DNA of 28,952 nucleotides from a virus, in the IMG/VR virus record IMGVR_UViG_3300023228_000005, positions 1 through 28,952 of that record. The stretch is one strand, 5' to 3'. Made by a program: the position numbers and the translations under genes. This document shows positions 1,512-12,651 of the stretch, piece after piece. Every line of letters starts with the position of its first letter. The stretch's first letter is position 1. The notes under the pieces are model-generated. The model was not told the DNA's origin, did not search any database, and worked only from the letters and a program-made list of their open reading frames with translations.

Positions 1512-1526
1512 GTCCATTAAATGGAC
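1512..1526. repeat. Dispersed palindrome, copy 1 (GTCCATTAAATGGAC)
   Basis: Perfect 7+1+7 palindrome starting 3 bases after the portal stop codon. It is one of at least 12 copies of the TCCA-N5-TGGA element in the window and the most symmetric one. Confidence 0.8.
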
Positions 1527-1538
1527 ACAACCATCCGC

Positions 1539-1560
1539 AATGAAGGATTTTCATTAGGAG
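1539..1560 (+). promoter_or_regulatory. Hairpin with GGATT loop abutting the ribosome site, copy 1
   Basis: Stem AATGAA (1539-1544), loop GGATT (1545-1549), stem TTCATT (1550-1555), followed at once by AGGAG (1556-1560). The same layout with different but complementary stems precedes the scaffold gene and the gene at 12043. It is read here as an RNA element controlling translation of the gene at 1567. Confidence 0.65.
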
Positions 1561-1566
1561 AACGTG

Positions 1567-2163
1567 ATGCTAGAAATCGAAAAAGAAATACTAGATACAC
1601 AGAAGAAAAATGAAGAACTTGAGGAAAAGTTATTTCTTCTACGAGGAAAAGAGTTAGCTCTGAGGACATCTATAGCCATAAAAACGGCAGAAATTGAATG
1701 TCCTCACATTGCGGGAAGTAGTATACTTTCCGTATGCCGAGATATTTTGGGTAAAACAAGTATTGCTTGGCATCAGCTAAATAGTTCTGCGGGCGGAACT
1801 ATCGTTGGTGTCTGCTTACTATGCAACCGACAGTTCAGACCAGAGGACCTTGATTACACTTACTGGAGAAGTAAACCAAGTTTCTGCCGAATATCTAAAG
1901 CAGGAAAACAAGAACCCATAGGACCGGACGAGAATGTAGACGAAGAGATTAAAAAGCAATTTACAAATTTTAAGGAAAAAGGAATTGATCTTGAACAAGT
2001 ACAGACTTGGGGTGCCAATTACTTTGAAGAATTTCTCCAGCTTTCTCCCGAAGAACTAGACAAGAAATCTGATTTCGAAATCCGAAAAGTCATGGAATAC
2101 GTCCGAGAAAAACGCAAGAAGGAAAAGGAGTCCGCGAATGTCCCTAGTACCCAGACAGCCTAA
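1567..2163 (+). CDS. Zinc-finger protein with coiled-coil N-terminus, paralogue of the 12043 gene
   Basis: 198 residues. Residues 1-40 are charged and coiled-coil-like. Residues 45-110 hold a compact domain with C45, H47, H69 and the pair C83/C86, followed by the signature RFRPED-like QFRPEDLDY, a WR.KPSF motif and S.AG. The rest is acidic and helical. The domain matches residues 117-180 of the protein at 12043 closely (C.HIAG, RDI.G.TSI.WH, C..C.R.FRPED.DY), so the two are paralogues that probably bind zinc. The ATG at 1567 is preferred over GTG at 1564 because AGGAG (1556-1560) then has 6-base spacing. The function is unknown. Its position between portal and scaffold suggests a role in head assembly or in regulation, and it shares its RNA leader with the scaffold and its own paralogue. 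Confidence 0.8.
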   Translation: MLEIEKEILDTQKKNEELEEKLFLLRGKELALRTSIAIKTAEIECPHIAGSSILSVCRDILGKTSIAWHQLNSSAGGTIVGVCLLCNRQFRPEDLDYTYWRSKPSFCRISKAGKQEPIGPDENVDEEIKKQFTNFKEKGIDLEQVQTWGANYFEEFLQLSPEELDKKSDFEIRKVMEYVREKRKKEKESANVPSTQTA

Positions 2164-2356
2164 TTTCTATGTTCAAGGCAAAGACAACATGGGAGGAATC
2201 CCAACTACAGACTTTGACAACATGTCCGACGAAGACCTCCGTAAACTTATGAATGGCGTAAACGCTCTAAGTGGAAAAGCCGCTCGTGTTCCCCCACCAA
2301 AACTCCCTCCTGTCAAGCAAGAGTTTGATCTTGATGCTTATTTTAGGGGAGAGTAA
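2138..2356 (+). CDS. Small head-region protein carrying a DFDNM-SDE motif
   Basis: 72 residues, beginning inside the end of the previous gene (26-base overlap) with a strong AAGGAG at 2125-2130, 7 bases before ATG. No known domain is recognised. The centre holds DFDNMSDEDLRKLM, predicted helical, followed by a proline-rich linker (RVPPPKLPPVK) and an acidic end. The first eight residues of the motif recur almost exactly in the C-terminal tail of the scaffold (DFDNMTDE). Scaffold C-termini in other phages bind the capsid protein, so this may be a short capsid- or portal-binding protein; that is inference. Confidence 0.7.
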   Translation: MSLVPRQPNFYVQGKDNMGGIPTTDFDNMSDEDLRKLMNGVNALSGKAARVPPPKLPPVKQEFDLDAYFRGE

Positions 2357-2697
2357 TGATAGACTACGATCAGATTGAGCCGGAACTTAACCTCTATGAA
2401 CGTGGAAGGATGCTTCGGACTACTATAAATACCCCAGGTTGGGAGACAGTTCTGGAAACAATTCACTCATATGTAGAGGATATTGATCGACAGATGAGGG
2501 CGATTCCTGTCGGAGATCCTAGTGTAGTTCCCAGTCATGCGGCCTTGTTTGCTTTGGATAAATTTGAAACATATTTCAAGCAGGACATTTCCAATGCCAT
2601 AGAAGTTTCCGAGAATCCTTCTGAGGACCTGCAACACTATTTAATAGAGTCCAAGGACAGATTTGACGTTCGGAAGGCAATGGATACGGCCAGTTAG
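2356..2697 (+). CDS. Hypothetical head-region protein, 113 aa
   Basis: The start overlaps the previous stop by one base (TAATG at 2354-2358), which points to coupled translation. The protein is mostly helical and acidic and has no motif I recognise. It contains a region rich in aromatic and charged residues (HAALFALDKFETYFKQDI) that could form an amphipathic helix. It sits between the portal and scaffold genes, where small head-completion or portal-associated proteins are common, but nothing in the sequence proves that role. A palindromic repeat element overlaps its last base. Confidence 0.7.
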   Translation: MIDYDQIEPELNLYERGRMLRTTINTPGWETVLETIHSYVEDIDRQMRAIPVGDPSVVPSHAALFALDKFETYFKQDISNAIEVSENPSEDLQHYLIESKDRFDVRKAMDTAS

Positions 2698-2711
2698 TCC
2701 ATTTTCTGGAT
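2697..2711. repeat. Dispersed palindrome, copy 2 (GTCCATTTTCTGGAT)
   Basis: Core TCCA-N5-TGGA. It begins on the last base of the 2356 gene's stop codon. A -10-like TATACT follows at 2718-2723, so the element would overlap the -35/-10 spacer if that promoter is real; no convincing -35 is visible. Confidence 0.75.
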
Positions 2712-2788
2712 TCCCAGTATACTAGGTATCTACGCGGTAACAACCAAAATCGCGCCATATATCAGTTAATCACGCAGCATAAACCCGC

Positions 2789-2810
2789 AGGGATGGATTA
2801 TCCCTAGGAG
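2789..2810 (+). promoter_or_regulatory. Hairpin with GGATT loop abutting the ribosome site, copy 2
   Basis: Stem AGGGAT (2789-2794), loop GGATT (2795-2799), stem ATCCCT (2800-2805), then AGGAG (2806-2810). It is preceded by CCCGC, similar to the flanks of the other two copies. It is placed to control translation of the scaffold. Confidence 0.7.
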
Positions 2811-2819
2811 AATGAATAA

Positions 2820-3998
2820 ATGGCAATTCCTGTAGTAGATCCGTGGCTTGTGAACTCTGATGGAACACCCGACCCTTTTGCTGGAACTGTAGATTTTAGG
2901 TCCGACCCCGGTGATCTTCGTGATCCTGATGTACCGACCGACGGAGACCCCGTCTTGGAGTCCCACGAAAGTCTTGATCCCGAAATCGTAGTTGAAAAAC
3001 CAGAGGCGGAACTGGAACCCGCTCCTCCTGTCACTCCACCCGCAGAACAGGAACCAGAAGAACCAGAAGTATTGGAAGTAGAAGGCGGGATGGTTACCCT
3101 GGAAAAGGAACGGGGCCAGTGGAAAGCTACCCTTACTTCCAACAATGGAGGAAACCCTCAAGTCTATTGGGGAAAAAACAAGAATGACCTTTTGGGAAAT
3201 GTTCTGAAAGCGCAGTTAAACGCAACCCAAAAGATTAGAGAGCTAAACGGAAAGTTGAAGTTTGGTACTCCGGTATCTAGACCGAAAAACGTACCTGTTC
3301 CCACTCCAGAAAATCGTCCGCTTACTGCTGATGAAATTTTTGAGGTCAAGACCCAACTTGAGTCTGATCCTTCTTTGGCAATCAATACCCTCTTCCAAAA
3401 GAGCACGGGATTGTCGATGCAGCAGTTGGTGAATATGGCCCAAGAAGGCAGGCAAGCTGCCATCGAACTGCGTGCAGATGCAGCTAATAGAACCTTCCGA
3501 GAAGAGAATCCAGATTTCTATCCTGATAAGGATTATAAGAATTTTGAAATGATTTTGAAGTGGCTGGCCAAGTTCAAACTTGGTAAGATGGTTAAAGGGG
3601 AAGACGTTGATCCTATTTTTGCGGAACTAGTCTCCACCGGAAACTACACAGCCGAAACTCTTGAGGAGGCTTTCGAAGACCTGAGCACGGATGGTTTGTT
3701 GATTCAGGCTCCTAAAGCACCCAAACAAGCTCTGCCAAAAGCAGAAACCCCTCCGCCGGTAGCGGTTCAGCAACACGAACCGGCACCTGCGCCGCGCCCC
3801 GACTCACGGATTGTGAATACGGTGGTGCGCCCGAGAGCGGCTACAGGACTCAGGACTGCTGACGTAACACCCGTCAGTGCTCCCGACACTCCGAAAGCGC
3901 CCTCAGCCGAGGACTTTGATAACATGACCGACGAACAGCACCAAGCATTGTGGCAAGCTATTCGCCGGGATCGTTTGAAAAGTCGGCGCTCCAACTAA
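2820..3998 (+). CDS. Capsid scaffolding protein
   Basis: 392 residues lying just before the capsid gene, the standard place for a scaffold, which templates procapsid assembly and then leaves. Residues 1-85 are acidic and proline-rich (a PPVTPPAEQEPEEPEV stretch). The middle is helical, with the FREENPDFYPDKD.KNFE motif seen in phage scaffold-type proteins. Residues 285-360 are a long Pro/Ala linker. The basic C-terminus holds DFDNMTDEQHQALWQAIRRD and ends in KSRRSN, like the short basic coat-binding helices of other scaffolds. The ATG at 2820 lies 9 bases after AGGAG; an ATG at 2812 is out of frame. Its leader hairpin links its expression to the zinc-finger paralogues. Confidence 0.8.
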   Translation: MAIPVVDPWLVNSDGTPDPFAGTVDFRSDPGDLRDPDVPTDGDPVLESHESLDPEIVVEKPEAELEPAPPVTPPAEQEPEEPEVLEVEGGMVTLEKERGQWKATLTSNNGGNPQVYWGKNKNDLLGNVLKAQLNATQKIRELNGKLKFGTPVSRPKNVPVPTPENRPLTADEIFEVKTQLESDPSLAINTLFQKSTGLSMQQLVNMAQEGRQAAIELRADAANRTFREENPDFYPDKDYKNFEMILKWLAKFKLGKMVKGEDVDPIFAELVSTGNYTAETLEEAFEDLSTDGLLIQAPKAPKQALPKAETPPPVAVQQHEPAPAPRPDSRIVNTVVRPRAATGLRTADVTPVSAPDTPKAPSAEDFDNMTDEQHQALWQAIRRDRLKSRRSN

Positions 3999-4016
3999 AC
4001 AAACAAAGGAATAACC

Positions 4017-4115
4017 ATGAGTTTTTCACCAGCATCAATCGTAACTTCCGGGGCGCTTCCGAACTTAGTAGCAATTCACTATGAACGTGAAGCGATTCCT
4101 AACCTGTATCCGCCT
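4017..4115 (+). CDS. Major capsid protein, N4-gp56 family, exon 1 of 4
   Basis: The capsid gene is split: exons 4017-4115, 4904-5341, 6161-6361 and 6582-6809 join in frame to about 321 residues, a normal length for the N4-gp56 family, which builds the HK97-fold head shell. Exon 1 codes for 33 residues (MSFSPASIVTSGALPN start, then HYEREAIPNLYPP), the conserved N-terminal arm. Unspliced, the frame stops two codons later at TAG (4122-4124). Its 3' end is set by a P1 pairing of exon CGCCT (4111-4115) with intron GGGCG (4142-4146), which puts a U-G pair at the splice site, and by frame. AAAGGA precedes the ATG. Confidence 0.85.
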
Positions 4116-4235
4116 TTGGGCTAGGACGGAGTTATGAAGAAGGGCGTAGTTTTTACGGAAGGCGCAAACGCCCTTCCTCAGCATTGGATGTTTTCTTGTG
4201 CTGAGAACCAATCTGACTAAATCCGTTAATCCCTG

Positions 4236-4264
4236 TAGACAAGTTCCAGAGAATATGGTATACT
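4236..4264 (+). promoter_or_regulatory. Sigma-70-like promoter inside intron 1
   Basis: TAGACA (4236-4241), 17-base spacer, TATACT (4259-4264) with an extended -10 TGG just before it. It would start transcription near 4271, about 35 bases before the endonuclease ATG. The TAGACA string also falls in what may be the intron core, so part of the match could be chance. Confidence 0.5.
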
Positions 4265-4306
4265 TATCTAGAAGTTAAAAACAGACAAGACGGAGCGAAG
4301 ATTTCC

Positions 4307-4894
4307 ATGAACGAAACACGAAAAGAAAATTGGGCGTATTTAGCAGGATTGCTCGATGGAGAAGGTTGTTTTACGATTACGGGTACCTGGAAGAAGAGAA
4401 ATCCAGCACCTAAAACTGCCGAAGGAAGCGAAGTATACTTCCACATGAATTTGATTATCAGCCTGTACAATAACGATCTTTCTGTTATGAAATGGCTGGT
4501 TCAACATTTCGGAGGCGTTTATTACGTACATCATCCTTCCAAAAAACCTACCCATAAAGTGGGATATTCTTGGCACCCAAAAGGAGCTAAGAACAAAGAA
4601 CTTCTTATTCTCGGTGTTCTCCCCTACATGATAATAAAGAGAGAACAAGCTAAAATATCTTTAGAGTATCTTCGGCTGAATGGTGCAAATGCTGTCAACC
4701 AGAGACTTGAGATGCGGGAAAGAATACAAACACTTAATGGGCACGGCATGGGAAAACGCCAAACGACTAATATGTCAGACCGACCGGAAGATGGCCGGAA
4801 GATAGAGTCTGGACTCGTAGGTGACTACGAGAGTGAGCTTGTGGTGACGCAAGTAGTGCCAGATTACGTTAACAAAGTAATCTATGCCCCCTAA
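4307..4894 (+). CDS. LAGLIDADG homing endonuclease in intron 1
   Basis: 195 residues. The LAGLIDADG helix is LAGLLDGEG at residues 12-20, with catalytic acid E19, after the common NWAY lead-in. Only one such motif is seen, so the enzyme should act as a homodimer that cuts the intronless capsid gene at the insertion site and promotes intron homing. A later conserved block (LLILGVLPYMIIKREQAKIS) matches the intron 2 enzyme, as does the MKWLVQHFGGVYY block. The last 45 or so residues are read from the intron's P7-P9 core and probably are not part of the enzyme fold. GGAG at 4292-4295 lies 11 bases from the ATG, a long spacing. An internal promoter lies upstream. Confidence 0.88.
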   Translation: MNETRKENWAYLAGLLDGEGCFTITGTWKKRNPAPKTAEGSEVYFHMNLIISLYNNDLSVMKWLVQHFGGVYYVHHPSKKPTHKVGYSWHPKGAKNKELLILGVLPYMIIKREQAKISLEYLRLNGANAVNQRLEMRERIQTLNGHGMGKRQTTNMSDRPEDGRKIESGLVGDYESELVVTQVVPDYVNKVIYAP

Positions 4895-4903
4895 ACAAAA
4901 CGG

Positions 4904-5341
4904 ACGAAACAAAAGCCCCTGCCCCTACGTCAGGGAAACCAAATCCAATTCTACACCTACGCTCTGCTTGCCGCAAACCTTAACCAGGCGGGGGAAGGTA
5001 CCGTAGGATCTCCAATCAGCGAATCCAGCACTAAGATCGTGGCTACGATTGGTCAGTACGCTGACTTTATCAATAGTTCGGACTTGGCGCTTGATGTCGC
5101 AATCGATGACCCTGGTTTGCTACAGAGTCTCGCGAATGAACTTAACTACCGCTTGGCTTTGACTCTCAACACGCTGGTTCAGCTAACCGCTGATTCTGCT
5201 GTTGCGGTTGATAACCAAGTTAACATCCAGTTGGCCAATGGATCTTACCTCACTGCGAATAACCTTCGCTCTGCTGTACAGTCCTTGGTTAGCGTAAATG
5301 CTCGGCCTCTCGTGGACAACAAATTTGGTGGCATTATCCAT
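4904..5341 (+). CDS. Major capsid protein, exon 2 of 4
   Basis: 146 codons holding the most diagnostic capsid motifs: PLPLRQGNQIQFYTYALLAA, then EGTVGSPISESSTKI, then ATIGQYADFINSSDLAL, the N4-gp56 pattern of an acidic EG loop followed by the QY.D strand. It ends with KFGGIIH at the conserved IIHP site of the family. Without splicing the frame would run on to a stop at 5366-5368, adding nine unrelated residues. The 3' end is fixed by P1: exon TATCCAT (5335-5341) pairs with GTGGATA (5381-5387) over seven pairs, the last being U-G. Confidence 0.88.
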
Positions 5342-5441
5342 TATCAAAACTATCACCAAGCGGCGTAAGCCGTATATAGGGTGGATATAAAATTTGAGCT
5401 AAATCGGGGAACCTCTCTAGTAGACAATCCCGAGGAAAGAC

Positions 5442-5470
5442 TCCTTAACAATTCGAAATAGTCGAAAGGA
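5442..5470 (+). promoter_or_regulatory. Hairpin that may mask the ribosome site of the intron 2 endonuclease
   Basis: TCCT (5442-5445) can pair with AGGA (5467-5470), the Shine-Dalgarno core, stacked on TTCGA (5452-5456)/TCGAA (5462-5466) with a 6-base bulge. Endonuclease genes in phage T4 introns are known to be silenced this way. Confidence 0.4.
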
Positions 5471-5476
5471 TACGAG

Positions 5477-6145
5477 ATGTATCAGGAAGATAAGACTAAA
5501 TGGTCGTATATGGCCGCTTTAATTGATGGTGAGGGTTGTATCTCCATCTACCGTAGACTGAGTGACGGCGAGAAATATACGCGAGTTCACAAAGTCAAAG
5601 CCAACACTAACCCGTATAATCAGTTTAGTATGCGGGTGCAGGTTACCAACACCGATCTTAGATTGATGAAATGGCTAATCGCAAACTTTGGCGGGGTTTA
5701 CTACCAGAAAACACAAGGAAACGGCAAACACAAAGCCGCTTACGAGTGGAGACCTAAAGGTAGATCCAACGTAGAGAAGTTACTGCTGGGAATTCTCCCG
5801 TACATGATTATCAAACCGGAACAAGCAAAAATCGCGCTTGACTATATTCGGATGACAATCGGTAACGAAAGGAACCCAGAAAAGCGTAACGAGATGTATC
5901 ACCGTATGCGCATCCTGAACCAAAAGGGAGAATCCGTAGAGACTAATACGCTCGACTGTCCAGATAATGGACAGATGATAGAGTCCGAACTCGGTTGCGA
6001 AGCCGAGAGTGAAGATCAGGTGACTGATCTAACGTGGGCGGAAAAGAAGGCGAAGCTAGAAGTGGAAAATCTGGAAGCGGAGAAATCCGATAGTTTGGAA
6101 AGATTCCGGTTCGAGATTGCCCACCCTACCTACTTCCCGCGTTAA
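5477..6145 (+). CDS. LAGLIDADG homing endonuclease in intron 2
   Basis: 222 residues, homologous to the intron 1 enzyme. The single LAGLIDADG helix is MAALIDGEG (residues 12-20, catalytic acid E19) after KWSY. Shared blocks are MKWLIANFGGVYY and LLLGILPYMIIKPEQAKIAL. It should be a homodimeric endonuclease specific for the uninterrupted exon 2-exon 3 junction. AAAGGA (5465-5470) lies 6 bases before the ATG. The C-terminal part after about residue 155 is read through P7-P9 and then a charged helical tail (AEKKAKLEVENLEAEKS) absent from the intron 1 enzyme. The ORF ends 15 bases before the intron's 3' end. Confidence 0.88.
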   Translation: MYQEDKTKWSYMAALIDGEGCISIYRRLSDGEKYTRVHKVKANTNPYNQFSMRVQVTNTDLRLMKWLIANFGGVYYQKTQGNGKHKAAYEWRPKGRSNVEKLLLGILPYMIIKPEQAKIALDYIRMTIGNERNPEKRNEMYHRMRILNQKGESVETNTLDCPDNGQMIESELGCEAESEDQVTDLTWAEKKAKLEVENLEAEKSDSLERFRFEIAHPTYFPR

Positions 6146-6160
6146 TCCTAAACACAATTA

Positions 6161-6361
6161 CCTAATGTTGTTCGCGACATCCTGAACGATACGAGTTACA
6201 ACGGTCTTACCGACATTGTAAAGCGTTCGGACGAGATGAGGGCTATGCTGTTTGAACTGCCGAAGAACGAGGATGTTATTTCGTTTGCTGGCGTGAAGTT
6301 CAAGCAGACATCGACTGCGCCGACAGTAACTATAAGTGGTAACACTTATTACAACACCTAT
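6161..6361 (+). CDS. Major capsid protein, exon 3 of 4
   Basis: 67 codons: PNVVRDILNDTSYNGLTDIV, a charged helix (KRSDEMRAMLFE), then a beta section ending SGNTYYNTY. This is the part of N4-gp56 capsid proteins between the IIHP strand and the P-domain/C-terminal region. There is no start codon of its own; the frame is blocked upstream by TAA at 6149-6151 and would end at TAA (6377-6379) if intron 3 were not removed. The 3' end at T6361 is supported by frame and by CTAT/GTAG pairing with 6371-6374. Confidence 0.82.
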
Positions 6362-6581
6362 GAACAAGACGTAGCTTAAGCGGGTGACTGCTTTCGAACA
6401 CAGCCCAAATTCGGTGGATAACTCTTAGGAGTCAATACCGAGCCAAGCCCCGAAAGGGGAAGGTGTAGAGACTAGAGGGGCTGCTCCTGAAAAGGATGAT
6501 GGTATAGTCCGAACTGTGCGGCGACGTACAGAGGTCGATGGAAACAATCGGCCCCGCCCGTTAGGGCGAGTAACAAAATTG
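6362..6581 (+). ncRNA. Group I intron 3 in the capsid gene, no ORF
   Basis: A compact 220-base intron with the clearest core of the three. A hairpin CCCC-GAAA-GGGG (6448-6459) is followed by the classic GTGTAGAGACTAGA string. P7 is GACTA (6470-6474)/TAGTC (6505-6509), P8 TCCT-GAAA-AGGA (6485-6496), P9 CTGTGCG-GCGA-CGTACAG (6514-6531). It ends in G6581. P1 is CTAT (6358-6361)/GTAG (6371-6374) with a terminal U-G, and P10 is TCTT (6583-6586)/AAGA (6366-6369). An alternative P1 (CACCT/GGGTG at 6381-6385) is stronger but would break the frame. Confidence 0.9.
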
Positions 6582-6809
6582 ATCTTTGGTGATGACGCTA
6601 TCTTCTCGGTATTCCTTGGCAAGAACCCCGAGGACGGTAGCAAAAACTATAAATTGTTTATTCAAAGTGCACCAGATCAGGGCTCTGTATCTGATCCAGC
6701 TCACCAAATTGGCGGATGGGTAAGTTACAATGTTCGCTATACGAACACGCTCCGTCCTGGCAGCACAATGACTCTAAGACGCATACAATCAGAGACTTCC
6801 AACTCGTAA
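6582..6809 (+). CDS. Major capsid protein, exon 4 of 4
   Basis: 75 codons and the stop: IFGDDAIFSVFLG, then IGGWVSYNVRYTNTLRPGST and a short tail MTLRRIQSETSNS. The GDDAIFSV strand and the final G.V...RPG block are typical of the C-terminal part of N4-gp56 capsid proteins. Codons upstream of 6582 in this frame are intron sequence; an in-frame ATG at 6516 lies within intron 3 and is not a real start. Confidence 0.85.
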   Translation: MFGDDAIFSVFLGKNPEDGSKNYKLFIQSAPDQGSVSDPAHQIGGWVSYNVRYTNTLRPGSTMTLRRIQSETSNS

Positions 6810-6840
6810 GGAACTCTGAAAAATAAATTCGATTTTCTTG

Positions 6841-6868
6841 TTGCATAACCAAGAAACTGTGGTATAAT
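6841..6868 (+). promoter_or_regulatory. Sigma-70-like promoter after the capsid gene
   Basis: TTGCAT (6841-6846), 16-base spacer, TATAAT (6863-6868) with an extended -10 TGG. It faces the endonuclease gene and the small-gene cluster and is the best promoter match in the window. Confidence 0.65.
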
Positions 6869-6897
6869 GCAATTATTGGGTTCGAATTCATAGGTAA

Positions 6898-6921
6898 GGG
6901 GCGGCGCTGACCCGCCGCCCC
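6898..6921 (+). terminator. GC-rich hairpin 30 bases after the promoter start; terminator or 5' stabiliser
   Basis: GGGGCGGCG (6898-6906) pairs with CGCCGCCCC (6913-6921) around a 6-base loop. There is no U run, so it is not a standard Rho-independent terminator. It could end capsid transcription poorly, attenuate the promoter, or cap the 5' end of the new transcript. Confidence 0.4.
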
Positions 6922-6925
6922 GAAA

Positions 6926-6945
6926 CCTCATGGTCAGATGAGGAG
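6926..6945 (+). promoter_or_regulatory. Hairpin masking the ribosome site of the HNH-like endonuclease
   Basis: CCTCAT (6926-6931) pairs with ATGAGG (6938-6943), which holds most of the AGGAG (6941-6945) used by the ATG at 6950. The pairing would also hide the upstream ATG at 6938. Confidence 0.5.
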
Positions 6946-6949
6946 AAAC

Positions 6950-7432
6950 ATGGAAACCAAGATTTGTTCAAAGTGCGGAGAGACTAAATCGATTGATGAC
7001 TTTAGTAAACGAAAAGCGTCTAAAGACGGTTATCAACCTCTCTGTAAGACATGTAAAAAAGAGTACAACACGCAGTGGGCGGTGGAAGACAAGGATAGCC
7101 CACGAAGACCGAATCGAAACAGTTTCTTCAACGCAAAGAAAAGGTCCAAGAAGACAGGGGTTCCCTTTACGATTACAGAATCCGGCTTCATTGTCCCGGA
7201 AATATGTCCAATTCTAGGTATTAAACTAGAAAAAGGACGCATTAATGGGTCGTTGGATACATCCCCAAGCCTGGACAAAATTCGCCCGGAACTCGGGTAC
7301 GTACCGGGAAATATCGCTGTTATATCGTACCGAGCGAACCGCATCAAGAACGATGGTACTGCCGAAGAACACCGAAAGATCGCAGACTGGATGGACGCCC
7401 AACTAAAGGAGACCCCCAATGTTCGGTCCTGA
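6950..7432 (+). CDS. Free-standing HNH-like endonuclease with zinc ribbon
   Basis: 160 residues. Residues 3-32 form a zinc ribbon (CSKCGETKSIDDFSK, then C..C in LCKTCKKEY). The C-terminal half has CPILG followed by SLDKI.PELGYVPGNIAVIS, then RANRIKNDGT, the pattern of HNH-type phage endonucleases in which the asparagine after GYVPG and the following block build the beta-beta-alpha metal site. It sits 140 bases after the capsid gene, so it may be a homing enzyme that targets this region. The start is placed at 6950 because AGGAG directly precedes it; ATG 6938 would put the ribosome site inside the gene. A promoter and two hairpins lie upstream. Confidence 0.8.
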   Translation: METKICSKCGETKSIDDFSKRKASKDGYQPLCKTCKKEYNTQWAVEDKDSPRRPNRNSFFNAKKRSKKTGVPFTITESGFIVPEICPILGIKLEKGRINGSLDTSPSLDKIRPELGYVPGNIAVISYRANRIKNDGTAEEHRKIADWMDAQLKETPNVRS

Positions 7433-7604
7433 TCCAGAAGTTAGTACGTGGACGGCGGAGGACTGGGAACAGTATGTTTACCCAGACCCCGTGCCAGAGG
7501 AGCTACTAGACCTCCGAAAATCCTATGCTGCTATTCTGCAAAATAGGTGGAAAGATATGCTAGAGTATCTGAATTACCTTTCTAAGGAGACCAATGCCGA
7601 CTAA
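7419..7604 (+). CDS. Hypothetical small acidic protein, 61 aa
   Basis: It starts inside the end of the endonuclease gene (14-base overlap) after AAGGAG with normal spacing, and its end overlaps the next gene. It is acidic and rich in Trp and Tyr (MFGPDPEVSTWTAEDWEQYV), with a helical C-terminal half (YAAILQNRWKDMLEYLNYL). I do not recognise a family. The tight overlaps on both sides support it as a real gene of the small-gene operon. Confidence 0.65.
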   Translation: MFGPDPEVSTWTAEDWEQYVYPDPVPEELLDLRKSYAAILQNRWKDMLEYLNYLSKETNAD

Positions 7605-7908
7605 CACACCGCTCACCTGCGAAGTAAAAGACGGAGAACTGGTAGTTCGAATTGGTATTTCTACCCTAGCCGAAGCCTCCGAATTTGAAGGTAGAGATCC
7701 GTTTTGGGTTTTCGATTACGACCAGAATAAATTCGTGCAAGAGTACAAGATCATAGCCCCAGTAGGATGGGCAAAAGACGTTTGTCGAGAGATTAACCGA
7801 GAAGGAGAAGACGGAAGTAGCCTCCTAACCCATCTTTTAGACACAGCGTCTGAACGCGCTCTTGACCAAGGAAGTTTAAGCGTATGGTCTCCGAAGTGGG
7901 GGAACTAG
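7594..7908 (+). CDS. Hypothetical protein, 104 aa
   Basis: The ATG overlaps the previous gene by 11 bases and follows TAAGGAG at 7581-7587 with good spacing. The N-terminal half looks beta-rich (CEVKDGELVVRIGISTLAEA), the C-terminal half helical and charged (EINREGEDGSSLLTHLLDTA). No motif or family is recognised. It is followed directly, with no gap, by the next gene. Confidence 0.65.
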   Translation: MPTNTPLTCEVKDGELVVRIGISTLAEASEFEGRDPFWVFDYDQNKFVQEYKIIAPVGWAKDVCREINREGEDGSSLLTHLLDTASERALDQGSLSVWSPKWGN

Positions 7909-8106
7909 ATGGCCCATTACAATCACAAAGTATCCTTCTGTGAACATTGCCAGACCGATATAATTATCTGTGGAAAATGTGGGAACAACTGCTGTAATGG
8001 AGGGTACGGAATCCTACCAGATGGTACTACTTGTGATGCTTGTCCCTCTGCTTACGAAGAGCAAGAAAAACTATGGAGGATACGAGATGCCCAACTTCCC
8101 AAATGA
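7909..8106 (+). CDS. Small cysteine-rich (zinc-binding) protein, 65 aa
   Basis: The ATG directly follows the previous stop (TAG-ATG at 7906-7911). The protein has eight cysteines in pairs: CEHC, CGKC, CC and CDAC, a layout typical of a two-site zinc ribbon or treble-clef protein. The C-terminal 18 residues are charged and helical. Small zinc proteins like this are common in phage accessory clusters and have many roles, so no function is proposed. Confidence 0.7.
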   Translation: MAHYNHKVSFCEHCQTDIIICGKCGNNCCNGGYGILPDGTTCDACPSAYEEQEKLWRIRDAQLPK

Positions 8107-8188
8107 CCCGTTTGCGTACTTGATAGTTTTGGTAGGTACAGCCATCCTATTCTATTTGATTGGAAACTATCCAAGGTGGAAAAATTGA
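8087..8188 (+). CDS. Tiny single-span membrane protein, 33 aa
   Basis: It begins at ATG 8087 after GGAGG (8076-8080), overlapping the end of the cysteine-rich gene by 20 bases. The protein is MPNFPNDPFAY, a hydrophobic stretch (LIVLVGTAILFYLIG), then NYPRWKN with a basic end, so one membrane span with the C-terminus probably inside. Size and layout would fit a small holin, a holin regulator or another membrane peptide. The good ribosome site and clean hydrophobic segment are the evidence. Confidence 0.55.
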   Translation: MPNFPNDPFAYLIVLVGTAILFYLIGNYPRWKN

Positions 8189-8322
8189 AAGTAGCTTATA
8201 AAAGAGAGGAACCCGATGCCGTCTACTGTATCCGTAACAACATCTTCGTCGCTGCCGAATCTGTCCGCTACTTACTATGGAAAGAAAACCAAGCCAAAGC
8301 CAAAGAAGGCCAAGAAAACTAA
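8185..8322 (+). CDS. Possible small protein with TTG start, 45 aa, overlapping the 8216 gene
   Basis: TTG at 8185 overlaps the stop of the membrane peptide and follows AAGGTGG (8173-8179). The frame reads KVAYKREEPDAVYCIRNNIF and ends AKEGQEN, with ordinary composition and a pyrimidine-rich third position like the neighbouring genes. It shares most of its length with the ATG-started frame at 8216. Either one is real or both are; the sequence alone does not decide. Confidence 0.4.
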   Translation: MKVAYKREEPDAVYCIRNNIFVAAESVRYLLWKENQAKAKEGQEN

Positions 8323-8329
8323 GAAGTAG
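8216..8329 (+). CDS. Small lysine-tailed protein, 37 aa
   Basis: ATG 8216 lies 6 bases after GAGG in AGAGAGGAAC. The protein has a Ser/Thr-rich start (PSTVSVTTSSSLPNL) and a strongly basic end (YYGKKTKPKPKKAKKTKK). Very basic short proteins, often nucleic-acid binding, are frequent in phage structural regions, and the next gene also ends in lysines. It overlaps the 8185 frame almost completely. Confidence 0.5.
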   Translation: MPSTVSVTTSSSLPNLSATYYGKKTKPKPKKAKKTKK

Positions 8330-8331
8330 GA

Positions 8332-8346
8332 ATCCAGAAAATGGAC
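8332..8346. repeat. Dispersed palindrome, copy 3 (ATCCAGAAAATGGAC)
   Basis: Core TCCA-N5-TGGA in the orientation opposite to copies 2 and 6. It lies directly against the GGAGG ribosome site of the gene at 8357. Confidence 0.8.
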
Positions 8347-8356
8347 GGAGGTAAAC

Positions 8357-8518
8357 ATGGCAGCAAAACATCCCGGTTTCAAAGCGATCCAATCAAAAAT
8401 CCAGAAGTCTGGGTACAGCAAGGAGTCTGCCGGAGCAATTCTAGCAAACGCTACCCGAAAAGCTAACCCATCAGCTAAGTCGAAGAATCCGAAACTGAAA
8501 AAAGTAAAGGGTAAGTAA
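8357..8518 (+). CDS. Small basic conserved phage protein, 53 aa
   Basis: ATG 8357 follows a perfect GGAGG (8347-8351) after a copy of the dispersed palindrome. The sequence is HPGFKAIQSKIQKSGYSKES, then AGAILANATRKA, then a lysine-rich end (KSKNPKLKKVKGK). The pattern of a GF.a.q..I...G.s.e.AgAilA..tRka block with a basic NP.LK.V tail is one I associate with small proteins of unknown function found widely in phages. It is probably a nucleic-acid- or virion-associated protein; that is inference. Confidence 0.7.
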   Translation: MAAKHPGFKAIQSKIQKSGYSKESAGAILANATRKANPSAKSKNPKLKKVKGK

Positions 8519-8751
8519 TGGCTGACCAACCCGTTAGGCTTAAAAAGAGTAGTCAGGTACATGAAGCTACCTACGACCCTAGTACGAAACGATGCTCTGT
8601 TGTTCTAAACGGAGCGACGGTAGCATACCACCAAGTCGAACCCCAGACTATAGCAGAGTGGGAAAAGGCGGATAGTCCCGGAAAATACTTCCACGAGTTT
8701 ATCCGGGGACCCAAGGATAACCCAAAACATAAGTTTTCAAGAGTACGATAA
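8518..8751 (+). CDS. KTSC-domain-like protein, 77 aa
   Basis: The start overlaps the previous stop (TAATG at 8516-8520). The body follows the KTSC pattern: a beta strand with YDP.TK.CSVVLNG, then a Y..V...TI.EW strand-helix, then ADSPGKYFHEFIRG, matching the S.G.yF...I. block after which the family is described. KTSC domains are small, often encoded in phages and next to other domains, and their function is unclear. The first motif residue (K) is replaced here. It is the last gene before a transcription end region. Confidence 0.55.
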   Translation: MADQPVRLKKSSQVHEATYDPSTKRCSVVLNGATVAYHQVEPQTIAEWEKADSPGKYFHEFIRGPKDNPKHKFSRVR

Positions 8752-8794
8752 AATAAATCTAGAATCATGAACAAATCTTATGATTTTTTCGTAT

Positions 8795-8802
8795 GGTATA
8801 AG
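8795..8802 (+). promoter_or_regulatory. Extended -10 box (TGG-TATAAG-like), weak promoter
   Basis: TATAAG at 8797-8802 with TGG before it, similar to the boxes at 4259 and 6863. No -35 is visible. If active it would give a short transcript running into the two hairpins just downstream. Confidence 0.25.
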
Positions 8803-8823
8803 TGAAACCATGTGAAAGAGATA

Positions 8824-8849
8824 AAACGGGCACAGATTTTGGCCCGTTT
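8824..8849 (+). terminator. Hairpin 1 of a tandem pair, possible terminator
   Basis: AAACGGGC (8824-8831) pairs with GCCCGTTT (8842-8849) around a 10-base loop. The descending arm ends in TTT. It lies about 70 bases after the KTSC gene. Confidence 0.55.
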
Positions 8850-8851
8850 AC

Positions 8852-8888
8852 CGGGGGTGGGCTTTATTCCTCCTTTCTCCCACCCCCG
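8852..8888 (+). terminator. Hairpin 2 of a tandem pair, possible terminator
   Basis: CGGGGGTGGG (8852-8861) pairs with CCCACCCCCG (8879-8888) around a 17-base pyrimidine-rich loop, followed by TTT. Together with hairpin 1 it most likely ends the capsid-to-KTSC transcript. Confidence 0.6.
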
Positions 8889-9168
8889 TTTCGATCTATA
8901 CAGCAGGGAAGCCTCTCCTAGATGCTCAAATCCCCTACTAGTTTTTGTCCAGAAAATGGACCTAGGCAGGTTACTACTAAGAAAGAGTTAAATCTCTTCT
9001 TTCGTTAGCCCCGAGAAAGAGACGAAACTGTTCAGGCTGGAAACAAATGAAGGAGACTGGACGCCCGAGACGACCTCTTCGGTGGAACCTTTCCCTAGTT
9101 TCTTTCCGGGCAAGTCTGCCCAAAACTTTCTGAATCAGTAACCTGCACTTTGTTTATCAAGAGGTAGT
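8889..9168. other. Non-coding stretch before the 9169 gene
   Basis: Within the 417-base gap 8752-9168, this part has no convincing gene. It holds one dispersed palindrome (8947-8961) and a small hairpin GGGCA-AGTC-TGCCC (9108-9121). A 28-codon frame from ATG 9048 lacks a good ribosome site. No promoter with both boxes was seen, although one would be expected for the following operon. Confidence 0.5.
8947..8961. repeat. Dispersed palindrome, copy 4 (GTCCAGAAAATGGAC)
   Basis: Full 5-base arms. It is the exact reverse complement of copies 7 and 10 and lies in the middle of the non-coding gap. Confidence 0.8.
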
Positions 9169-9561
9169 ATGTCTAAAGTCGATCCTTTCGACGACCACAA
9201 TCGCCATCTAGTTGGCCTTCCCGATCACGTTCTGAGGGATATAGCAAGGAACGAAGCTGCCCCCCGAGAGTACCGGAAGGCGGCTGTTGAGCGTTTGGTG
9301 GTTTTAAAATCCCCCCACGCGAAACACACAGATCTCAGAGAACTAGTCCGAGAACTAGAAATTGAGCTAGAAGGAATCCAGTTCGAGTATCCATCTTCGG
9401 ACGGTCCGGGTCCTCTGACTTGCGGAGTGACTACGGAGACAATGTTCGGTCATACCGTGTATGAGGTTCACGAACTTCCAGCGACCCTCCCAGAGCACTG
9501 CGGAGATACTCTGAAGTTGGTGCCGAAAGAAGAGGAACAAGATGCTCCTCCCGCTTCCTAA
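9169..9561 (+). CDS. Hypothetical protein, 130 aa
   Basis: ATG after AAGAGGT. The N-terminal half contains a helix-rich segment (HVLRDIARNEAAPREYRKAA) followed by VERLVVLKSPHAKHTDL, a pattern that recalls small phage proteins in which a short A-P-R-E-Y-R-K-A-A block precedes a repeat-like helix. The C-terminal part is acidic. No enzyme motif is visible. The last 20 bases overlap the phosphatase gene, so the two are probably translated together. Confidence 0.65.
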   Translation: MSKVDPFDDHNRHLVGLPDHVLRDIARNEAAPREYRKAAVERLVVLKSPHAKHTDLRELVRELEIELEGIQFEYPSSDGPGPLTCGVTTETMFGHTVYEVHELPATLPEHCGDTLKLVPKEEEQDAPPAS

Positions 9562-10180
9562 ATCCGCAACAGTGGCTTGTTATGTTGTTCGGCACGGGCA
9601 GACAGTTTTGAATAAAGACAAATGTTTCCGGGGTAATTCAAACCCTCCTTTGGATTCTACGGGGCTTAAACAAGCTCATGAAATTGCCGATCTTCTGGAA
9701 CCCCTCGACGTATCGTCGATATTCTGTTCCGACAAGCAAAGAGCTACCAAAACTGCCGATATTATTGCCGAGAAGAAAAACCTCCCCATACATACATCAG
9801 AATCTCTTCGAGCCCTCAATGTCGGTGATTTCTCCGGTCAGAAACGTACTCCAGAATCTGAATCCTGCCTCCAGTCCTACCTAGATGACCCCCAAACACA
9901 AATTCCGGGTGGAGAATCCCTAGCAGAATTCAAGTCTAGGATTCATCCCTGCCTGCAAGACGCTATTGAGTTGTTTTGCGAATGCGGATGCCCTCCCGTT
10001 CTAGTAGCCCACTCATCTGTCGTTCACGAGATAGGAAGTATTCTATACGGGGATCACAAGAGCATATTAGTAGAACCAGGAGGGGCCGTAGCGGTCTACT
10101 TCGACGGATCAAAACTAGCAGCAAAACCCATCTACAAACCTTTGAAAAGCTCGGGCAGTCATGCCGAAACGATAACCTAA
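9542..10180 (+). CDS. Histidine phosphatase (phosphoglycerate mutase-like) family protein
   Basis: 212 residues. The signature RHG motif is in YVVRHGQTVLNKDKCFRG (residues 14-31), with H18 as the likely phosphohistidine. The SS.l.RA..TA motif appears as SIFCSDKQRATKTADII, the acid region as GGESLAEFKSR, and the second catalytic histidine in LVAHSSVVHEIG. These are the conserved elements of the branch that includes cobalamin-pathway and broad phosphatases. Such enzymes are unusual within a phage structural operon; the substrate cannot be told. ATG 9542 overlaps the previous gene and follows AGAGGAAC. A perfect 12-base palindrome follows its stop. Confidence 0.85.
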   Translation: MLLPLPKSATVACYVVRHGQTVLNKDKCFRGNSNPPLDSTGLKQAHEIADLLEPLDVSSIFCSDKQRATKTADIIAEKKNLPIHTSESLRALNVGDFSGQKRTPESESCLQSYLDDPQTQIPGGESLAEFKSRIHPCLQDAIELFCECGCPPVLVAHSSVVHEIGSILYGDHKSILVEPGGAVAVYFDGSKLAAKPIYKPLKSSGSHAETIT

Positions 10181-10192
10181 CCCGATATCGGG
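10181..10192. repeat. Perfect 12-bp palindrome CCCGATATCGGG
   Basis: Directly after the phosphatase stop codon and 30 bases before the next ATG. It may be a hairpin or a protein site; no second copy was seen. Confidence 0.4.
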
Positions 10193-10221
10193 CGCAACCC
10201 AAATCAACTAAGGAAAATAAA

Positions 10222-10893
10222 ATGCCTAATACTAATTCCGTGGCGGGTTTCGCCCAGAGCGGCACCCTTCGCAACCAATTCGTATCAACTCCCGTCTCCG
10301 CTACCGCAGAAACAGCCGCTCTTATTGCTACCGATACTGGAACGACTGCGGCCTTTGTAGCTCTCCCAGTAGGAGGCAAAGTCTATGGTTCTCAGATCAA
10401 TCTGGATGTAAACTCAAATCCATCCATTATTGATGTCTCGGCCCGTGAATACGGACTCCCGTCAGGTGAAAACTTCGATCAATTCTCCTCCGCGTCCTGG
10501 GACGGGCATCCGTTCTATGTTCGTGTGTCTGGGATCGGAAACGCCGGGGCCGTGGCTTCGCAGTCTGTTACTCTGAATATTCGTCAAGGAACTTCTGCAA
10601 CCCCAGGATCAAATAATTTAATTGGAACTACTGGAGCACTTGCGGCGGTGGCGGGTGGGGCCTTCAATTATTTTGTCGAAGCCACTTGTCTTTGGGATCC
10701 AACGTCTCAGATTCTATCGGGGGCGTATACTGGAAACGTCGCATTTGGTTCTACTTCCGCCTACGTCACTCCTACCAAGTTTGTATTTACGGGCGTAACG
10801 GCCGCTTCCTTGGCTTTCTCCGCTACTCTGACTCTTGGAGCAGCGGCGGCCAGCACGTTTACTCCACGCGAACTCACAATCGAAAAGATCTAA
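10222..10893 (+). CDS. Structural protein, probably head decoration or fibre, 223 aa
   Basis: ATG 10222 follows CTAAGGAAAAT; the frame is open further upstream but that part lies in the phosphatase gene. The protein is rich in Ala, Thr, Ser, Gly and Val, with alternating hydrophobic strands typical of beta-sandwich virion proteins (GGKVYGSQINLDVNSNPS, then GHPFYVRVSGIG, then VTLNIRQGTSATPGSNN). It has almost no charged residues in the second half and ends with STFTPRELTIEKI. This composition fits a surface protein of the head or a fibre head domain. No family name is supported. Confidence 0.65.
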   Translation: MPNTNSVAGFAQSGTLRNQFVSTPVSATAETAALIATDTGTTAAFVALPVGGKVYGSQINLDVNSNPSIIDVSAREYGLPSGENFDQFSSASWDGHPFYVRVSGIGNAGAVASQSVTLNIRQGTSATPGSNNLIGTTGALAAVAGGAFNYFVEATCLWDPTSQILSGAYTGNVAFGSTSAYVTPTKFVFTGVTAASLAFSATLTLGAAAASTFTPRELTIEKI

Positions 10894-11022
10894 TCTCAAC
10901 GAGTTTCCGGTCTCGACAAAACCGGGTTGGATGCCTCTATATCATAAGGTACAGAGCCGGAACAGGGGTCTCGGGGTCGAGCGAGTCGTTTGCTACTCGG
11001 ATATCGAGAACATCCGCATTTT

Positions 11023-11037
11023 GTCCGTTAAATGGAC
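11023..11037. repeat. Dispersed palindrome, copy 5 (GTCCGTTAAATGGAC)
   Basis: One base off the consensus left arm (TCCG). It ends one base before the TGAGGAG region used as ribosome site by the gene at 11049. The preceding 130 bases (10894-11022) have no gene but several short inverted repeats. Confidence 0.65.
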
Positions 11038-11048
11038 TGAGGAGTCAG

Positions 11049-11312
11049 ATGTCAGTTTCTATTAGTGTTTGGAACCCCGAAGATAAATCACCCACAATTT
11101 CCGCTAAATTTTACAACGTGATTGGATACGTGATCGCAGCAGTTGTGAAACACGAAGACGGAAAGATTACCCTAGAGAGAGAAATCTCAGTTACGGCCGA
11201 CGATGTCATTGATAATCAACTTGCAGAATCAGTAGTCAAGACTATCGAAGAAAAGTTGAACGAAGCCTTTCCTGATCCTAATCAACAGCCAAAGTTGTGG
11301 GTGCCTAAGTAA
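11049..11312 (+). CDS. Hypothetical protein, 87 aa
   Basis: ATG 11049 follows GAGGAG with 5-base spacing. A longer frame upstream is not used: it overlaps the preceding gene and lacks a ribosome site. The protein has a beta-rich first half (SVSISVWNPEDKSPTISAKF) and an amphipathic helix (QLAESVVKTIEEKLNEAF) in the second, ending with a proline-rich tail. No family is recognised. Its stop overlaps the start of the next gene (TAATG). Confidence 0.65.
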   Translation: MSVSISVWNPEDKSPTISAKFYNVIGYVIAAVVKHEDGKITLEREISVTADDVIDNQLAESVVKTIEEKLNEAFPDPNQQPKLWVPK

Positions 11313-11992
11313 TGTCAGACACCCTACAATCCGATTTTGATGTTGTAGATTATGAAGCGGGCGTGTCAAATGACGTAAAGGGACAGGAATGTTGCGGTTG
11401 CAGGAGACTCTTGCGCTGGGAGTTCTACGATAAGGACTCCTCCCGATCTACCGGCTATGACCCAATGTGTCCCCTGTGCAAAGCCTCCCCCAAACTCAGC
11501 TTAGCGGAACACACTGCTCGGATGCGGGAAATGAATTATAACTCAGAAGGTACCCGCCGCCAACGCCACCCAGATCAGGACATCCTCCGCGAAACCCGAC
11601 CTGGGCGATATCTGGACTGCTCCTTGTTCCTATCAAAACTCCTCCACATCTACCCGCAGCTTTATGTCACCCAAGGTGGAATTGTTACCGATCTTGCTCT
11701 GTACGCAACATCTGGAATCAATAAATCAGAATGGTCCGGGCAGAGTTTTAAATATATGGGTTACGTAACTCTCGGGAGAATGCCTGAATACTCTGAATAC
11801 GAATTCAACGACCGAGACGTTTTGCAGCGCTGTACCCAGATGGGTTGGAGATCCGCTCTTCTCCGGTTTGTAGAAAACAACATCATTACAGAAAAGCAAT
11901 GTAATCAAGAGTTTGGCTACCCGTCTGGGGGAACAAACTCTCTGTGGTACAAAAGAATCCACAACCATCTAAACGCTAAGAAAATAGCTTAA
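11312..11992 (+). CDS. Zinc-ribbon protein, 226 aa, function unknown
   Basis: The start overlaps the previous stop. Residues 27-57 hold a zinc ribbon with C..C pairs (ECCGCRRLLRWEFYDKDSS, then GYDPMCPLCKAS). Its spacing and the F.KD....GY..MC..C pattern match the N-terminal ribbon of the HNH-like endonuclease at 6950, but no nuclease motif follows. The remaining 165 residues are mixed helix and strand with several Trp and Tyr (GRYLDCSLFLSKLLHIYPQL, NKSEWSGQSFKYMGYVTLG). It may be a DNA-binding protein or an endonuclease derivative that lost its catalytic domain; that is inference. Confidence 0.65.
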   Translation: MSDTLQSDFDVVDYEAGVSNDVKGQECCGCRRLLRWEFYDKDSSRSTGYDPMCPLCKASPKLSLAEHTARMREMNYNSEGTRRQRHPDQDILRETRPGRYLDCSLFLSKLLHIYPQLYVTQGGIVTDLALYATSGINKSEWSGQSFKYMGYVTLGRMPEYSEYEFNDRDVLQRCTQMGWRSALLRFVENNIITEKQCNQEFGYPSGGTNSLWYKRIHNHLNAKKIA

Positions 11993-12007
11993 TTCCATTA
12001 AATGGAC
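11993..12007. repeat. Dispersed palindrome, copy 6 (TTCCATTAAATGGAC)
   Basis: It starts at the last base region of the 11312 gene's end and shares the ATTAAAT centre with copy 1, which also precedes a GGATT hairpin and a zinc-finger paralogue. Confidence 0.75.
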
Positions 12008-12016
12008 AAAACCCGT

Positions 12017-12037
12017 TTGGCAGGATTTGCCAAGGAG
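12017..12037 (+). promoter_or_regulatory. Hairpin with GGATT loop abutting the ribosome site, copy 3
   Basis: Stem TTGGCA (12017-12022), loop GGATT (12023-12027), stem TGCCAA (12028-12033), with AAGGAG at 12032-12037. The flank CCCGT precedes it. Stem bases differ from the copies at 1539 and 2789 but pairing is kept. Confidence 0.7.
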
Positions 12038-12042
12038 ATAGA

Positions 12043-12651
12043 ATGACACTCAAAGCCCTTCAGCCCCTTCCCGAGAAGACCGAGAAAAAGGAACCCGCTG
12101 CTTCTGAAGCTACAGCGCTTCCCCCGATTACCCAAGATACTTTGCTTTCCCTGATTGCTTCTATGCAGCAGCAGTTGCTGGCTTCACAACAAGCTATCGC
12201 GGAAATGCAGAAGAATCAGAACGAAGCCAACCACGCTTTGGCTGACGCAATCATCGAGACAACCAAGCCTCGCGAGCGCCTGAAGACTAAGAAAGAAATC
12301 GCTCAGGAAAAGAACGACGAGCTGTTCCAGAAGAACGAAAAAGAACTTGATCTTCGCAAGAAAGCAAACGTAGAGTACACGCAGAGTCTATGCGATCATA
12401 TTGCTGGGTGTAGCGAATTGTCAGAACAAAGGGATATTGCAGGACGAACATCCATTGGTTGGCACCGCAACGATATCGGAGTAGATATCGGGATTTGCTC
12501 TGTTTGCCAGAGAATATTTAGACCCGAAGATCCTGATTACGCACAGTGGCGCAAGAAGCCCAGCTTTAATAAGCTGTCGCAAGCTGGTCACAGAAACGTA
12601 ATGAATCCGGTGGAAGCAAGAGAACAATCTTATCTGCACGATATCGAGTAG
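12043..12651 (+). CDS. Zinc-finger protein with long helical N-terminus, paralogue of the 1567 gene
   Basis: 202 residues. Residues 1-30 are a proline-rich linker; 31-110 are helical and Gln-rich (QDTLLSLIASMQQQLLASQQ), suited to a coiled coil; 117-180 are the zinc domain shared with the 1567 protein: C117, H119, H141, C152 and C155, then RIFRPEDPDYAQWRKKPSFN. The N-termini of the two paralogues are unrelated in sequence though both are helical, so the domain was duplicated with a new oligomerisation arm. Both genes have the same leader type: ATTAAAT palindrome, GGATT hairpin, AGGAG. An RNA-binding or assembly role is possible; neither is proved. Confidence 0.8.
   Translation: MTLKALQPLPEKTEKKEPAASEATALPPITQDTLLSLIASMQQQLLASQQAIAEMQKNQNEANHALADAIIETTKPRERLKTKKEIAQEKNDELFQKNEKELDLRKKANVEYTQSLCDHIAGCSELSEQRDIAGRTSIGWHRNDIGVDIGICSVCQRIFRPEDPDYAQWRKKPSFNKLSQAGHRNVMNPVEAREQSYLHDIE

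Follow-up and report, generated by a model that had tools for sequence, protein, structure and literature searches.

Phage mRNAs can be controlled by short hairpins that present a fixed loop at the ribosome site, as in the coat operator of MS2, where a structural gene product is the reader. MS2 is an RNA phage with one gene (replicase) under this control, and its operator has a bulged A and the loop AUUA, with GGAUUA spanning stem and loop. The sites of CsrA/RsmE combine a GGA in a hairpin loop with a GGA in the ribosome site. In phage P22, scaffold synthesis is reportedly tied to assembly post-transcriptionally, with scaffold autoregulation, for which we know of no shared hairpin operator. 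Here we describe a hairpin with the loop GGATT that precedes three genes of a 28,952-base virus record (IMG/VR IMGVR_UViG_3300023228_000005), hereafter the window, by which we mean the whole stretch analysed. The stem of this hairpin covaries, and the element recurs in related phages at a narrow set of genes and together with a family of Cys/His proteins (zinc proteins). According to PMC3014915, the reader of the T4 and RB69 gp43 operator is a phage protein that thereby limits its own synthesis as a repressor, with the T4 hairpin some 40 bases upstream, and T4 RegA is a single phage protein that represses about 30 mRNAs at the start site.

A fixed loop on covarying stems

The three hairpins of the window (Table 1) are present as the original prediction described them, with perfect stems of different sequence, a common loop and fusion to the ribosome site. 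Perfect hairpins with a 6-base-pair stem and a 5-nucleotide loop number nine on the window plus strand. The loop is GGATT in three (binomial P about 8e-8 under random loops), and all three are fused to a ribosome site. A further perfect GGATT hairpin, of 5 base pairs at 28803, is within an open reading frame (ORF) and lacks a ribosome site. With wobble pairs and loops of 5 to 7 nucleotides allowed, the window holds six GGATT hairpins, three of them at gene starts. Hairpins 1, 2 and 3 score 27.9, 31.7 and 32.3 bits with covariance model R1, to whose training set all three belong.

Table 1. Coordinates of the hairpins, ribosome sites, genes and adjacent dyad in the window
Feature	Position	Strand	Details
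GGATT hairpin 1, leader of zinc-protein gene 1	1539..1555	+	AATGAA GGATT TTCATT
Ribosome site AGGAG, fused to hairpin 1	1556..1560	+	
GGATT hairpin 2, leader of scaffold gene	2789..2805	+	AGGGAT GGATT ATCCCT
Ribosome site AGGAG, fused to hairpin 2	2806..2810	+	
GGATT hairpin 3, leader of zinc-protein gene 2	12017..12033	+	TTGGCA GGATT TGCCAA
Ribosome site AAGGAG, overlapping hairpin 3 stem	12032..12037	+	last AA of the stem in common
Zinc-protein gene 1	1564..2163	+	start GTG 1564 or, better spaced, ATG 1567
Zinc-protein gene 2, candidate hairpin binder	12043..12651	+	202 amino acids
Scaffold-like gene	2820..3998	+	392 amino acids; between portal and split capsid gene; 71 related loci
Portal gene, partial; anchor for relatives	1..1509	+	PHROG 332/1216
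Major capsid gene, first matching part	4919..5341	+	43% to Tunturi_3 major head protein
Major capsid gene, second matching part, after intron	6582..6806	+	37% to Tunturi_3 major head protein
15-base-pair dyad just upstream of hairpin 1, judged a separate element	1512..1526		

Pairing was assessed in an alignment (A5) of 59 distinct leaders with 5-nucleotide loops. These were chosen for GGATT and at least 4 paired bases, so that loop invariance in A5 is by selection and its pairing percentages lean upwards. All seven stem pairs vary on both sides, with 88.1% of cells paired (43.2% when shuffled) and 188 both-side changes (59 when shuffled). The covariation score is 1.111, compared with 0.217 when shuffled and at most 0.243 with slid partners. 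Leaders picked by homology of their genes give a similar picture: a hairpin is found in 61 of 69 scaffold and zinc-protein leaders, and their inner five pairs comprise 303 Watson-Crick pairs, one G-T, no A-C and one other. Overall, loops are of 5 to 7 nucleotides and stems of 4 to 7 contiguous pairs, mostly 5 to 7. Because the stem columns vary freely, the stem is best seen as a holder and the loop as the word to be read; that the loop is fixed while the stems are free suggests a reader acting in trans.

Distribution among related phages

Related loci were found via the portal (22) and via scaffold alignment (71), and nearly every relative examined has the same hairpin design at the scaffold gene. 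The scaffold-leader comparison used a hand-made table covering 52 of the 71 scaffold loci, and duplicates were only partly removed from the relatives' leader lists and from the homology-picked counts. The leader list (n=85) was reduced to 76, of which A5 takes the 59 with 5-nucleotide loops; the entries dropped were five stem repeats and four doubtful cases, namely L085, L191 and one within the scaffold gene of each of L140 and L143. In the nearer groups the order is (C)CCG, a stem of 5 to 7 base pairs, GGATT or NGGATT (where N is C, T or A), the complementary stem and the ribosome site. Genome contigs yielded two portal relatives only, one of which (L165, in an Acidobacteria bin) has the scaffold leader.

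A census of 18 phage records (1.4 Mb) identified 45 gene-start hairpins with a GGATT or NGGATT loop, 2 to 4 per record, compared with 0 to 6 for each of 16 control pentamer loops. By reading of their products, the genes encode scaffold (18), zinc protein (16), small proteins (8) and terminase-like proteins (3); the 45 include the identical leaders of G007 and G011, both counted. The scaffold gene is hairpin-led in all 18 records. Seven of the eight small genes directly follow the portal gene, and that of G004 is upstream of it; the one terminase-like protein checked is a terminase (PHROG 38, E 5e-55). When genes were picked by homology, the hairpin was found at 41 of 44 scaffold genes, 20 of 25 zinc-protein genes and none of 35 portal genes. 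The three scaffold misses are L136 and L137, in which the hairpin precedes the upstream gene, and L149, in which the stem is imperfect (this leader, with a CGG-free loop register, also appears as L148).

Among hairpins with 4- to 7-nucleotide loops at the ribosome site in 28 pieces, collected blind to loop sequence, GGATT occurs 26 times and the next loop three times. A pattern scan of IMG/VR that ignored pairing gave 38 matches within the loci collected, after partial removal of duplicates, with 0 to 4 of 6 positions paired in 28, 5 of 6 in two and 6 of 6 in eight; all eight fully paired matches belong to this phage group, as does one of the two with five pairs (L028, the other being L052). 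The original prediction proposed a covariance-model search of related phages. Over 1.5 Mb the model gave 41 matches with E<1, of which 40 are in such leaders and one is inside a scaffold gene; the model was built from A5, so many of the matched leaders were in its training set, and several census leaders with 6-nucleotide loops were missed or scored E>1. One match directly follows a p11312 homologue in G003 (L093), where a zinc-protein gene is expected and the record ends. Homologous scaffold and zinc-protein genes are preceded by the same loop and by pairing even where protein identity falls to about 25-28%, a strong conservation of the kind whose absence would have refuted the original prediction. 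A chance origin is rejected by the loop statistics of the window, the control-loop census and the covariation relative to shuffles. Separately, neighbouring genes share one identical hairpin in L074 (4038 and 4393, reverse-strand coordinates) and in L017 (1870 and 2217), a sign of duplication of a leader-plus-gene module.

Two groups depart from the common design. Tunturi_3, an isolated short-tailed phage of an acidobacterium (PMC11924767), has a portal to which that of the window is 33% identical, and in the census scan it has no GGATT hairpin at a gene start. Its hairpins are farther upstream: two, at 6271 and 6356, belong to the leader of the major head gene, and a third, at 8893, belongs to the leader of gp9, a zinc-protein relative, 158 nucleotides before the gene. 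We examined 24 Tunturi_3-like loci (L224-L247) between the scaffold-like and capsid genes and found two strict hairpins in L224, L225, L231, L240, L241, L244 and L247, whereas L228 and L238 have a single one each. The sequences of L240 and L244 stop short of the capsid gene; no strict hairpin accompanies the capsid match in L226, L227 and L232, and the remaining loci lack the region or showed none. In the seven Tunturi_3-like phages measured, the hairpin, often one of a tandem pair, is 92-198 nucleotides upstream of the major capsid start codon. RNAalifold on seven of these leaders predicts 16 pairs, which form both GGATT stems and lengthen the first one outwards; 13 of the pairs have both-side changes. 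In the most distant group (L154-L163) the hairpin precedes the scaffold gene and, in several members, a terminase-like gene. Two zinc-protein leaders of that group (L222 11019-11041 and L188 17702-17723) have, by eye, a hairpin with a different loop directly before AAGGAG.

The long leaders bear on the idea that RNA alone acts, whether through pairing of the loop to the ribosome or to an AAUCC-bearing partner RNA, or through the stem as a translation enhancer or protector of mRNA ends. A fixed loop of five bases would suit such pairing, and by eye AATCC is found in the middle loop of some Tunturi_3-group capsid leaders (L231, L241, L244), but it is absent from that loop in other leaders of the group. 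A generic enhancer or protector, moreover, needs no fixed loop, and the hairpin is at the start of only four kinds of genes. We regard this explanation as very unlikely.

The two genes that the original prediction called zinc-finger paralogues do encode paralogous Cys/His proteins (40-47% identity depending on the stretch). The scaffold label is based on gene location, on composition and on a weak resemblance of the product to Tunturi_3 gp4 (E 1.4e-4); the protein has no Pfam or PHROG match. A motif like the scaffold C-terminus, D-[LF]-D-x-[LM]-S-D-x-[EQ]-[IL]-x-x-L-L, was seen (loose regular expression and by eye) in several small genes and some zinc proteins, including window 2138-2356 and small post-portal genes of relatives, and is perhaps a coat-binding tail. 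The capsid gene (4307-7432) is split; it holds a group I intron (6352-6531) and a LAGLIDADG ORF (4307-4894), which the ORF at 5477-6145 resembles in look. Introns were also identified in relatives L016 and L018, and below threshold in L006; L018 also has 11 tRNA genes clustered upstream of the structural genes (836-2219).

The dyad next to hairpin 1, approximately GTCC[AG][AG]AWAATGGAC, occurs nine times in the window (1512, 5958, 8947, 11023, 14284, 18956, 20929, 25468 and 26821) versus 0.43 expected, and 76 times in a 97-kb relative versus 4 for a backward control. It is found between and inside genes in both orientations, and few copies occur in some groups that have retained the hairpin. 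When one mismatch is tolerated, 43 of the 85 leaders have a copy within 70 nucleotides. We rejected it as part of the hairpin, given its density of at most 0.1 per kb in 8 of 18 records, all hairpin-bearing. It looks like a stoperator-like site for a phage DNA-binding protein.

Candidate readers and proposed mode of action

We put at about 0.5 the probability that the hairpin is a cis-regulatory mRNA element read by a trans-acting protein, which would probably be the zinc protein acting as an autogenous repressor. A stem of free sequence (5-7 base pairs) would present a fixed (N)GGAUU loop, at the ribosome site in most groups, and the protein would read the loop and gate ribosome entry. Bound within a few bases of the ribosome site, it would block 30S entry and so jointly set the expression of scaffold, of its own gene and of one or two more genes for capsid assembly. 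The long leaders of the Tunturi_3 group would require a modified scheme, such as a coiled-coil dimer that spans two hairpins.

On its own the hairpin does not measurably hide the ribosome site, and we rejected this option: the mean unpaired probability of the site is 0.390 in 78 leaders and 0.434 in 444 other starts (p 0.26). In folded leaders the CC of the upstream flank pairs with the GG of the ribosome site in six of seven, with a z-score below -2 in one of seven. Because the site is about as open as elsewhere, a thermometer or self-acting lock is unlikely and a bound factor seems to be needed. The original prediction had a protein binding the hairpin to adjust scaffold and its own translation. 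This is partly supported: conserved loop and pairing hold, but the spacing in Tunturi_3-like phages, the targets in the distant group and a ribosome site not measurably more hidden than elsewhere speak against a simple fixed design.

The best candidate for the reader is the zinc-protein family: all 16 records tested have a member, and the hairpin that usually leads its gene fits autogenous control. It was identified in all 15 hairpin-bearing IMG/VR records tested (in three distant ones only at E 1e-6 to 2e-5), and the Tunturi_3 member, missed by a first profile, was found by a wider one (E 1.9e-7). The one query made with the L148 zinc protein gave no relative in the phage collection. The proteins combine a coiled coil with a CxH...H...CxxC domain, in which C, H and G are invariant and H, G, C and C near-invariant among 14 members (two cut short). 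The predicted fold has two long helices followed by a compact domain (mean predicted local distance difference test score 81.7, predicted template modelling score 0.47), and a Foldseek search of the model against the PDB gave no match at E <= 0.001. Leaders within a genome have matching loop lengths in 30 of 37 pairs versus 21.4 when shuffled, as expected if one reader serves all leaders, although this shuffling ignores shared ancestry.

Several observations weigh against the zinc protein as reader and against simple occlusion. Searches of PDB sequences, Pfam and PHROGs gave nothing convincing for the protein, which resembles no known RNA-binding protein. Five of 25 zinc-protein genes lack a hairpin at the ribosome site (that of Tunturi_3, one of the two copies in G012, namely the second, and three from the most distant group). 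In the most distant group the zinc-protein gene has no GGATT hairpin and the terminase gene has one instead, and the zinc-protein genes of Tunturi_3-like L228 and L247 have no strict hairpin. The Tunturi_3-like hairpins are far from the start codon, a poor fit to occlusion. Co-occurrence is partly linkage, since the gene is inherited within the structural cluster, and scaffold is as universal as the zinc-protein gene, so could itself be the reader. Finally, the test of RNA versus single-stranded DNA by strand is weak: leaders with only G-T number 8 and those with only A-C 7 as counted, or 8 versus 2 after in-gene hairpins and one misregistered leader are set aside.

Linkage would also suit a reader that is a host or other phage protein, with the zinc protein an unrelated virion or assembly factor travelling along. 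A loop GGA beside a GGAG ribosome site resembles CsrA targets, but to our knowledge CsrA has no need of the fixed UU after GGA, and a global regulator of the host should have more targets than 2-4 genes. A phage-encoded CsrA is rejected: PF02599 has no match in 16 records, and the control search was positive in 3 of 14 genomes. This origin of the reader is unlikely.

If scaffold were the reader, unassembled scaffold would repress itself and partner genes, tying supply to assembly. Its gene is the most constantly hairpin-led of all, including in the distant group, and some small hairpin-led genes have the scaffold-like motif D-L-x-x-S-D-x-x-I-x-x-L-L. As a loose regular expression it matches 20 of the 85 proteins encoded behind leaders, 13 being scaffold matches, compared with 89 of 4991 frames. 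However, we found no RNA-binding signature in scaffold (Pfam, PHROG), and the Tunturi_3 hairpins precede the capsid and zinc-protein genes, with none of at least 4 Watson-Crick pairs before the scaffold-like gene. Term searches of PMC3185693 and PMC12005531 gave nothing on scaffold autoregulation, and for P22 it was not found in the open-access literature among the matches listed. We consider scaffold as reader to be quite unlikely.

The original prediction also named, as a less likely alternative, a single-stranded DNA hairpin promoter of the type used by the N4 virion RNA polymerase. Fixed-loop hairpins near gene starts, giant proteins encoded by these phages and the weak strand test are compatible with it, but N4 spacing would start transcription inside the ribosome site and so remove that site. 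The two giant proteins tested have no polymerase family match, and a search with PF00940 was silent, as were its controls. The alternative gained no support and is highly improbable; the element probably acts as RNA.

Beyond binding by the zinc protein, it is possible, although doubtful, that the hairpin defines a capsid-assembly RNA regulon in double-stranded DNA phages, in which a zinc protein that also has a part in procapsid assembly, or senses it, would bind the common hairpin, and free (unassembled) protein would shut down synthesis of the whole kit. The targets would be scaffold, capsid, terminase and portal-linked mRNAs. If true, the regulon would be a molecular answer to how these phages couple scaffold supply and assembly; the hairpin would be kept and its targets would change from one phage group to another. 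An RNA operator with a single loop and free stem, shared by several morphogenesis genes of these phages, would offer both a candidate regulator and a defined RNA site through which scaffold supply is controlled post-transcriptionally. The idea is testable because Tunturi_3, which bears the hairpin, is in culture.

Comparison with known operators

Neither the zinc-protein family nor the RNA motif has a convincing match in the libraries searched. In Rfam, the window at gathering score gives only a group I intron, and five relatives at E up to 1 give introns, tRNAs and two sub-threshold matches, none at a hairpin leader; a known Rfam motif is therefore rejected. No description of the GGATT hairpin was found in the open-access literature among the matches listed, and the words 'hairpin', 'scaffold' and 'portal' are absent from the main text of PMC11924767.

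A conserved structured RNA is present at or near the start of the candidate regulated genes, and farther upstream in the Tunturi_3 group, whose long leaders are like the T4 gp43 operator in hairpin position. In T4 and RB69 the top 10 bases of that operator, including the loop UAAC, are identical, whereas in the window group the stem is free and the loop is (N)GGAUU. Rather than UAAC on a conserved upper stem, GGATT dominates and all seven pairs vary. The polymerase acts on its own gene; here several capsid-assembly genes appear to be addressed by a candidate reader, with scaffold, zinc-protein, small and terminase-like genes as targets in place of a gp43-type DNA polymerase. The MS2 sequence GGAUUA spans stem and loop, whereas here GGATT is wholly loop, and instead of a 4-nucleotide loop and a bulged adenine there are 5- to 7-nucleotide loops on contiguous pairs. 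GGATT with a free closing pair also differs from the CsrA consensus. RegA sites are A+U rich and without clear structure, and here the site is a covarying hairpin. While it fails the tested defining features of these named families, the element would work like a phage translational operator, comparable to those of gp43 and MS2 and, in being multi-gene, to that of RegA.

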